Shown here piece after piece: positions 4,523 to 62,446 of a stretch of 64,000 nucleotides of DNA. A program made the position numbers and the translations under genes. The notes under the pieces are model-generated. The model did not search any database. It worked only from the letters and a program-made list of their open reading frames with translations, and was not told the origin of the DNA. Within the stretch, counting starts at the first letter, position 1; every line of letters begins with the position of its first letter. The stretch is from Chloroflexota bacterium (lineage in GTDB: Bacteria > Chloroflexota > Dehalococcoidia > Bin125), in NCBI GenBank assembly GCA_028875225.1, contig JAPPFB010000002.1:186001-250000 (forward strand). Direction: 5' to 3'.

Positions 4523-4634
4523 TCCCTCCAGCACAGCCACCTCCACCCCAACCCCCAGCGCCGCCCTTCGTCCGACGCCCCGCCGCTCTCCCATACCCGA
4601 CACTCTCCCTCCGATGCCCCACACGCACCTCTCC

Positions 4635-4663
4635 GATGCCCCGCACTTGATGCGGGGCCCAGA
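4635..4663. repeat. GATGCCCCGC palindrome, family C
   Basis: GCCCCGCA-CTTGA-TGCGGGGC forms a perfect 8-bp stem, preceded by GAT and followed by CCAGAC. A diverged copy, again upstream of the paralogous small gene, lies at 61875-61903 with the same GATGCCC...GGGGCCCAGAC frame. Confidence 0.7.
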
Positions 4664-4796
4664 CAGCGATCGCCATCCCCGACGCCACTCTGACCCCATG
4701 CTCAGCCCCACCGACAACCCCAACACATCCCCACCACCCATTACAGAACACATGTACCTACAATGAACTCCTTCTCGCACACGTCAGGACCGACCA

Positions 4797-5120
4797 ATGC
4801 AAACCACGACCAACCCCTTCCACTTCCGAGCCAGGATCGACCGCCTCTGGCGACGCGCGAACAGTCACGCTCCCGCCTATCGCCGGCTCAACGCCCTCGA
4901 CGCCGTCGTCCGCGAACTCTTCGCCCCCAACGACCGCGCCCGCCGCAACCACCAGATGTACCTCGTCACCGACCCCTTCGACGTCGCCCGCCACTTCCTC
5001 CGTGACCTCCACGACCGCCCTCATCTCTGCTCTCCCCCCCCCAACGCGGGGGGAGATGCCGCAGGCAGAGGGGGGTTCCCTTGTCCTCACCGAGGGAACG
5101 CAACTCGAGGAAGACGATGA
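4797..5120 (+). CDS. Small basic protein of unknown function, copy 1; frame broken by a palindromic repeat
   Basis: As read, 107 residues. Residues 6-75 match the product of 62029-62355 at about 50 of 70 positions in a hand alignment, with the shared stretches RIDRLWR, APAYRRL, VVRELFAPN and DVARH. After residue 75 the frame enters a family A palindrome beginning with C9 (5034-5042) and then ends in an unrelated Arg-rich tail. Past the palindrome another frame encodes LVLTEGTQLEEDDDPW followed by TAA at 5128-5130, which corresponds to the acidic EDDDPL tail of copy 2. Losing one C from the C9 run would restore a 110-residue protein. So either the tract varies, the sequence has a homopolymer error, or this copy is a recent pseudogene. 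No known family is recognised; the body is strongly basic and the tail acidic. Confidence 0.6.
   Translation: MQTTTNPFHFRARIDRLWRRANSHAPAYRRLNALDAVVRELFAPNDRARRNHQMYLVTDPFDVARHFLRDLHDRPHLCSPPPNAGGDAAGRGGFPCPHRGNATRGRR
5030..5080. repeat. Family A palindrome inside the small gene
   Basis: TCTCCCCCCCCC-AACGC-GGGGGGAGA followed by TGCCGCAGGCAGAGGGGGG has the same build as the element at 2358. It lies inside the reading frame, between the conserved basic body and the acidic C-terminal tail of the small protein. The paralogue has a different palindrome at the same place. Confidence 0.75.
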
Positions 5121-5158
5121 CCCCTGGTAACGCCAATCTGCTCTCATGCTCCCGCTCG

Positions 5159-5167
5159 TTTTTTTTT
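5159..5167 (+). terminator. T9 tract downstream of copy 1 small gene
   Basis: Nine T residues follow CCCGCTCG, starting about 29 bases after the TAA of the restored frame. The paralogue has T8 in the same setting (CGCGCG then T8) 32 bases after its stop, and the sequences after both tracts are alignable (GGATC..CTCCC.GC..TGCCGTG). I see no strong stem in front, so termination is a guess, but the conservation shows the tract belongs to the duplicated unit. Confidence 0.35.
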
Positions 5168-5271
5168 CTTCCTGAGGATCGCTCCCTCCGGCTCCGCCGT
5201 GTCCCCCGGCGGATTTCGCCGATACCCCGAATCCCCCGATAGGCTCAGGCCAGAAGCCAGGAGGTCAATCC

Positions 5272-61644: not shown

Positions 61645-62028
61645 CGCAACAGCCCTTCACGCAAAACCGATACCCAGCCTCAGGCTACGCGCTCCGTCTG
61701 CCGCACTCTCGAGACCGACATGCAATCAGATCGAGGTCGGCCCCGCGCAGGCGGGGCCCCATAGCGTCCGAGACCAGCTCACTACTCGACCAGAGCCACC
61801 CCCGCACGCCCATCCGCTTCGATGTCCCGCGCACGCCCATCCGCTTCGATGCCCCATCCTCCCCCACCTGGTTCGATGCCCGTGCTTGACTCGGGGCCCA
61901 GACCTCGATCACAGAGCGCAGGCAACAGCCAATCCTCGCCACAATCTCCTCAAGCCCACGACTCCGACCCCGCCAAAACTCGATATAGTCAGAACATACG
62001 TCCGCCTGAGAGCCAAGGAGCATTCCCC
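61645..62028. other. Repeat-rich upstream region of small gene copy 2
   Basis: A 384-base gap with no gene. It contains a palindrome GGCCCCGCGCAGGCGGGGCC at 61739-61758, two units of GCACGCCCATCCGCTTCGAT starting at 61804 and 61831 (27-base period), and the family C palindrome at 61875-61903. The layout mirrors the region before copy 1: repeats, palindrome, about 130 bases, then the gene. Confidence 0.55.
61875..61903. repeat. Family C palindrome, diverged copy
   Basis: GATGCCCGTGCTTGACTCGGGGCCCAGAC shares GATGCCC and GGGGCCCAGAC with the 4635-4663 element; its stem is less perfect. Both copies lie upstream of the paralogous small genes, by about 130-155 bases. Confidence 0.6.
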
Positions 62029-62355
62029 GTGCCAAACCCTTACCACCTCCGAACGAGAATCGACCGCCTCTGGCGACACGCTAACTCCGACGCCCCCGCC
62101 TACCGACGCCTCACGTCCCTCAACAAGGTCGTCCGAGAACTCTTCGCCCCCAACCAATGCGCCCGCCTCAACCACCAGCTCTACCTCGCCTCCGACCCCT
62201 ACGACGTCGCCCGCCACCTCCTCCGCGACCTCTACGACCATGCCTCCCCTGCTTGGGAAGACCCCGCGCCCGTAACCATAGAAGTCGCCCCCGCGCAGGC
62301 GGGGGCCGCGCCGCTCGTTGACGAGTCCCCCGACGAAGACGACGACCCCTTGTAA
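62029..62355 (+). CDS. Small basic protein of unknown function, copy 2, with in-frame palindrome
   Basis: A 108-residue protein, GTG start with AAGGAG (62015-62020) 8 bases upstream. Residues 3-72 match the 4797 copy at about 50 of 70 positions: RIDRLWRHANS, APAYRRL, VVRELFAPN, DPYDVARHLLRDLYD. The C-terminal part is acidic (DESPDEDDDPL). Between them, codons 87-92 (APAQAG) are written by the palindrome GCCCCCGC-GCAG-GCGGGGGC-type element at 62287-62306, with the frame kept. No known family is recognised; basic body and acidic tail suggest binding to nucleic acid or a charged surface. Confidence 0.7.
   Translation: MPNPYHLRTRIDRLWRHANSDAPAYRRLTSLNKVVRELFAPNQCARLNHQLYLASDPYDVARHLLRDLYDHASPAWEDPAPVTIEVAPAQAGAAPLVDESPDEDDDPL
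62287..62306. repeat. Palindrome inserted in frame in the small gene
   Basis: GCCCCCGCGCAGGCGGGGGC forms a 7-bp GC stem. The similar GCCCCGCGCAGGCGGGGCC lies at 61739-61758 outside genes, so the sequence is a repeat and not just codon choice. It falls at the same point of the protein as the family A repeat in copy 1. Confidence 0.7.
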
Positions 62356-62386
62356 CCGCCACCCTCACCTCGTTCCCCACCGCGCG

Positions 62387-62394
62387 TTTTTTTT
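62387..62394 (+). terminator. T8 tract downstream of copy 2 small gene
   Basis: T8 follows CACCGCGCG, 32 bases after the stop, and corresponds to T9 at 5159-5167 behind copy 1. Downstream sequence (CTTTCCGCGGATCACCCGCTCC) also aligns. It looks like the end of the duplicated cassette; no clear stem precedes it. Confidence 0.35.
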
Positions 62395-62446
62395 CTTTCC
62401 GCGGATCACCCGCTCCCGGCCCTGCCGTGCCCGACTGGTTCTGACC

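Follow-up and report, generated by a model that had tools for sequence, protein, structure and literature searches.

A dispersed small-gene cassette, probably under SOS control, whose copies evolve in concert within one genus of Dehalococcoidia

Concertedly evolving prokaryotic genes such as tuf have paralogues that are more alike than orthologues in conserved positions, a pattern attributed to gene conversion, and the described cases are genes of known, mostly central function that often occur in two copies (PMC6053082). MITEs and REP-type elements are short, dispersed, non-autonomous sequences that lack a transposase and lie between genes (reviewed in PMC10969869). LexA (SOS) regulons carry boxes of the GAACN4GTTC type (e.g. 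PMC4234289), and SSB combines a folded domain, a disordered linker and an acidic C-terminal tip ending in proline plus a hydrophobic residue (PMC7145534). The cassette described here resembles each of these systems in part. The tuf-type genes are the closest precedent for its evolutionary pattern, with paralogues exceeding orthologues in similarity, but the family here is an orphan one, with as many as about 20 scattered copies; it also acquires new loci, and homogenisation extends to its promoter and 3′ block as well as to the gene. Like MITEs and REP-type elements it is short, dispersed, intergenic and without a transposase; unlike them it has no terminal inverted repeats, it encodes a maintained protein and its old copies are overwritten. 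Its operator, located in the −10/start region, is of the same type as in LexA regulons, and lexA and an imuB-like gene here also lie behind such sites, whereas the cassette forms many dispersed units, each with its own operator, and its protein is unlike known SOS proteins. The protein shares the domain-linker-tip plan of SSB at the level of sequence plan only; the body is predicted to be helical rather than an OB fold, there is no sequence similarity and the tip ends in DPL or DPW.

The window, the whole 64,000-nt stretch of contig JAPPFB010000002.1 that was analysed, belongs to a 3.2-Mb assembly of 29 contigs (G000) and contains two cassette copies. The features of the copies are as follows.

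61695 to 62445, plus strand: inserted segment around copy 1, approximate, with ends uncertain by 10-20 nt; 14 of 14 congeners are without it
61984 to 61989, plus strand: −10-like box TATAGT, directly 5′ of the operator; TAnnAT stands at the matching place in most copies
61991 to 62003, plus strand: LexA-type operator AGAACATACGTCC of copy 1, compared with lexA promoters
62029 to 62355, plus strand: cassette gene copy 1, 108 aa with a GTG start; 70-aa body, linker and acidic tip
62029 to 62241, plus strand: conserved basic four-helix body of copy 1, from AlphaFold2 helices
62287 to 62306, plus strand: linker GC palindrome of copy 1, translated in frame as EVAPAQAGAA
62332 to 62355, plus strand: acidic tip DEDDDPL and stop codon of copy 1, from the tip-pattern search of the own genome
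62387 to 62394, plus strand: T8 run of the 3′ block of copy 1, from the T-run pattern across the family
62418 to 62432, plus strand: 3′ end block GGCCCTGCCGTGCCC of copy 1
4639 to 4660, no strand assigned: C-type palindrome ahead of copy 2; general repeat outside the unit
4745 to 4757, plus strand: LexA-type operator AGAACACATGTAC of copy 2, from the motif search
4797 to 5120, plus strand: copy 2 ORF, 107 aa; body conserved, frame shifted after the linker
5107 to 5130, plus strand: EEDDDPW tail and stop codon of copy 2, out of frame with the body
5159 to 5167, plus strand: T9 run of copy 2, from the T-run pattern
5190 to 5204, plus strand: 3′ end block GGCTCCGCCGTGTCC of copy 2

Both reading frames described by the original prediction exist and are identical at 50 of 68 residues, and the T8 and T9 runs are present where they had been placed. 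The acidic tail that had been assigned to both genes is in frame in copy 1 but out of frame in copy 2, where the 107-residue ORF terminates as ...RGRR* at 5120. Because a C9 run (5034-5042) lies between the copy 2 body and the acidic tail, the tail may have been lost by a true frameshift or the indel may lie in the assembly; in the copy 2 orthologue in G010 (L057) the tail is in frame.

About 80 copies with flanks were collected to define the unit, which spans approximately 480 bp and consists of a −10 box, the operator, the 70-residue body, a variable, disordered linker, a near-invariant acidic tip, a T-run and a GGCCCCGCCGTGCCC-like block. The TAnnAT box is followed directly by AGAACATACGT[A/C]C, mostly 34-46 nt ahead of the start codon. 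A pyrimidine or T run about 26 nt past the stop codon was found in 76 of 77 copies, compared with 0.5% of control windows, and the strict pattern for the GGCCCCGCCGTGCCC-like 3′ block in 34 of 77, compared with 0.08% in the control. Sequence past the stop codon can be aligned between paralogues, as had been predicted, and the similarity extends to about 75 nt, where paralogue similarity falls to background and orthologue similarity starts rising; paralogue flanks thus reach background identity only outside the unit. The most conserved non-coding feature is the AGAACANNNGTNC operator (61991-62003 and 4745-4757), which was absent from the original prediction. Interpretation of the T-run as an intrinsic terminator was ruled out, there being no stem ahead of it, and a hairpin in the 3′ block was also rejected (no consensus structure, one of five folds better than shuffles, no match in Rfam). 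The conserved 5′ and 3′ ends are by inspection not inverted copies of each other, and no terminal inverted repeats were found.

Palindromes had been proposed as part of the conserved plan. C-type palindromes do lie upstream of both copies, at 4639 and 61741, and are the only matches to the pattern in the window, and each linker contains one GC palindrome, though the two are different repeats. Across the family, the patterns used detected palindromes upstream of 28 of 78 copies and in the linkers of 35 of 78; since they are present in under half of the copies they were rejected as unit components and are regarded as general repeats outside the unit. In the linkers of many loci, GC palindromic repeats of several kinds are translated as part of the reading frame (EVAPAQAGA, LPLGEGWGEG, SPPASGGGRC and ACPALDAG). 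Rickettsia palindromic elements are likewise palindromic repeats that lie in frame inside coding regions. In contrast to those elements, whose presence in genes is mentioned in PMC2694212, the in-frame palindromes of the cassette are of several unrelated types, are confined to the linker and do not define the unit.

The cassette occurs in many dispersed copies, not merely the pair that had been reported, and constitutes a defined unit made up of −10 box, operator, gene, T-run and end block. The own genome has 13 dispersed copies. The tip pattern gave 14 matches there and none for the control; a body accompanies 11 of them, and the other three are orphan tails at the ends of contigs, which raises the true copy number to at least 14. 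Carriers number 11 of 15 genomes of the genus with a one-protein query and 12 of 15 with a profile, with 0-20 copies per congener. A search of 60 relatives limits the family to one Dehalococcoidia genus, and a class-wide sample of 393 Dehalococcoidia genomes found it in one of 226 genera and in none of the other 225. Matching contig titles name Dehalococcoidia, Chloroflexi or Chloroflexota MAGs. Several of the MAG series with matching contigs are presumably from marine sponges. No relatives of the cassette protein were found in viral contigs, phages or plasmids. The main technical caveat is that every genome is a MAG and that many of the copies are located at the ends of contigs. Contigs that end in or near a cassette include C5, C29 and C8 (at their starts) and C26 and C16 (at their ends) of G000, together with C45, C55, C46 and C21 of G010, C26 of G014, C19 of G013 and C30 of G002. 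This suggests that near-identical copies break assemblies and that copy numbers are underestimated.

The cassette has inserted into intergenic sites. Copy 1 lies between a CaiB-type and a UPF0104-type gene (names assigned by eye), and in 14 of 14 congeners these two genes are adjacent and the cassette is absent, with a spacing between aligned anchors of 25-78 nt, compared with about 790-835 nt in G000. Because the site is also empty in G002, the nearest relative of G000 in a three-gene tree, the insertion is most simply read as a gain by the lineage of G000. CTCAGG occurs near both ends, but the junction is ambiguous, and neither a clear target-site duplication nor a mobilising enzyme was identified; no recognisable transposase is encoded in the cassette. 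At the copy-2 locus G000, G010 and G014 carry the cassette, and the other genomes examined lack it. The corresponding site holds approximately 2 kb of other sequence without a cassette in G002 (C22:272585-274735) and G006 (C6:137772-139747). The earlier proposal of a mobile cassette is supported with regard to the cassette itself, given the non-coding ends that are conserved in nearly all copies, the insertion at 62029 and the lack of a known family, while its toxin-like alternative found no supporting feature.

At older insertion sites that several species share, the content has been replaced by the genome's own version, and the copies evolve in concert. Flanking sequence defines 18 groups of loci common to several genomes. 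Across 67 orthologous pairs the flanks are 86% identical and the bodies 75%, compared with 87% for the best same-genome paralogue, and in only four pairs is each member closer to its orthologue than to such a paralogue. At shared loci, paralogous copies of one genome thus resemble each other more closely than orthologues do. On the tree of bodies, 21 changes are needed for the genome label and 41 for the locus label, and AU tests rejected one clade per locus at all six loci tested (p between 1e-44 and 0.026), the weakest rejection being at the window's own copy-2 locus. The resemblance of bodies to paralogues over orthologues, together with the rejection of locus-wise trees, leads us to conclude that the unit evolves in concert. 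In the two locus groups that were aligned in full, all or nearly all genomes share one 3′ junction but differ in content; the junction reads TACGCTGAGC at one locus and AGTTCAGTGGATTACG at another. Orthologous content is kept at some loci (L080/L086, L051/L059 and L111/L120), so replacement is frequent and not universal.

Based on these between-species patterns, replacement at shared loci would most likely occur by gene conversion between dispersed copies. A mobile element with preferred sites could mimic concerted evolution without gene conversion if old copies were lost and same-genome copies re-inserted, and both the clear new insertion at 62029 and the range of 0-20 copies between congeners would fit such behavior; we regard it as unlikely, given that the 3′ junction and orientation are constant across genomes at the aligned loci and that no target sequence shared between loci is apparent. 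Plain birth-and-death of an ordinary gene family, with recent lineage duplications and loss of old copies, would account for the genome-specific clades and near-identical pairs, but old loci with conserved flanks are still occupied by lineage-specific content and the non-coding ends are conserved along with the gene, making this explanation very unlikely. Overall, the data are probably best described by a non-autonomous, spreading small-gene cassette, itself probably SOS-controlled, whose copies overwrite one another.

The putative SOS control derives from the operator. A score of at least 10 of 13 was reached in 66 of 80 copies compared with 25 of 1600 shuffles, and the motif has 39 matches in the own genome compared with seven for a control motif. 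The lineage contains lexA, and G[AT]ACN4GTTC is found at one fixed position in 13 of 14 lexA loci examined, with GTAC variants of this site in G003, G004, G011 and G013. Read as its reverse complement, G[TG]ACGTATGTTCT, the cassette site fits the type seen at the lexA loci. The right half-site of the cassette operator is mostly GTAC or GTCC, not GTTC, and differs by one base in most copies. In a G014 subfamily the operator is positioned upstream of the −10 box instead of downstream. No clear LexA-type site was seen at recA. When compared with the lexA loci, the operator is thus, as judged by its sequence, of the type of the lineage's own LexA site, and LexA control of the cassette is likely because the lexA-locus sites match this type and the site position in G014 would be tolerable for an operator. 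Assignment of the motif to another regulator or promoter class, which would place the gene in a different regulon, has a small but real chance of being correct: the right half-site is usually GTAC or GTCC and HTH-type and other small genes also have the motif in front of them, but same-type sites are found ahead of lexA in nearly all congeners, some of them with a GTAC half-site, and ahead of an imuB-like gene, and the shift of the motif across the −10 box in the G014 subfamily is compatible with an operator but not with a sigma-recognition element.

Several other genes lie behind similar sites. At L142, an imuB-like gene (weak IMS match) starts directly behind GAACGGGTGTTC, a LexA-type site. 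A second dispersed group consists of HTH-type genes behind the same operator (L124, L133, L136 and L145; G000 C2:299252, C12:35943, C16:275153 and C22:148854), one copy being apparently frame-shifted; profile comparison showed no relation between these and the cassette protein. Small ORFs or spacers follow the same operator at L123, L129, L135, L139, L140 and L141, several with repeated TCTGGACAAATC-type DNA, and the one at L140 precedes a gene that looks to be uvrB. At L149 (G000 C23:64673-64874) a different small ORF has a promoter region of about 200 nt that is 78% like window positions 4600-4800, ahead of the copy at 4797. The L149 ORF was rejected as a relative of the cassette protein (a weak 20-residue match only), and it looks as if promoter modules had been exchanged between unrelated small genes such as L149 and copy 2.

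The cassette protein is predicted by AlphaFold2 to consist of a confident four-helix body (residues 4-18, 24-39, 43-54 and 57-70; block pLDDT 83-95) followed by a disordered linker and tail. The 70-residue body has a mean net charge of +4, while the last 12 residues carry about −7; 75 copies end in the tip, and EDDDPL or EDDDPW is found in 61 of the 75 tails. As the original prediction had supposed, the bodies belong to no well-known family, with no match in Pfam, NCBIfam, PHROGs, PADLOC or PDB sequences. Foldseek searches of known structures and viral folds gave nothing below E 0.001, and the OB-fold domain (PF00436) is absent. Reading frames are kept across copies, with dN/dS of 0.17-0.54 in five conserved orthologous pairs and medians over all less-diverged pairs of 0.52 within and 0.68 between genomes, values that indicate a fast-changing yet maintained protein. 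A multicopy toxin, toxin-antitoxin or defence gene might likewise be small and vary between genomes, but the absence of a PADLOC, Pfam, NCBIfam or PHROGs match, of a hydrophobic segment and of a partner gene in the unit makes this highly improbable.

The nucleic-acid-related role that had been suggested for the protein is possible, and we favour, from its sequence features, a damage-induced accessory of DNA repair. In this model, LexA would bind the operator and DNA damage would induce the gene; the basic helical domain, joined through the disordered linker to an SSB-like acidic tip (D-D-P-L/W), would then act at damaged or single-stranded DNA, where the protein may bind DNA and/or dock on the SSB-tip pockets of repair proteins. 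The analogy of the acidic tip with that of SSB is tentative and somewhat doubtful. Two of the three host SSBs end in D-Q-P-F, and the tail was rejected as a direct copy of the host tip, the own SSBs ending in DLPFE or DQPF and not DDPL. A homing-like drive without a nuclease, in which the damage-induced, SSB-tipped protein would direct host recombination to its own dispersed copies until a single version had replaced all others in the genome, is decidedly unlikely.

Bacteria rarely show concerted evolution in protein genes that are dispersed in many copies. The orphan gene described here is restricted to one genus and has a probable damage-response operator; it acquires new loci and is also overwritten at old ones. 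With this family, ectopic gene conversion can be measured directly in an uncultured lineage, and the cassette protein is a candidate for a new protein in the bacterial response to DNA damage.
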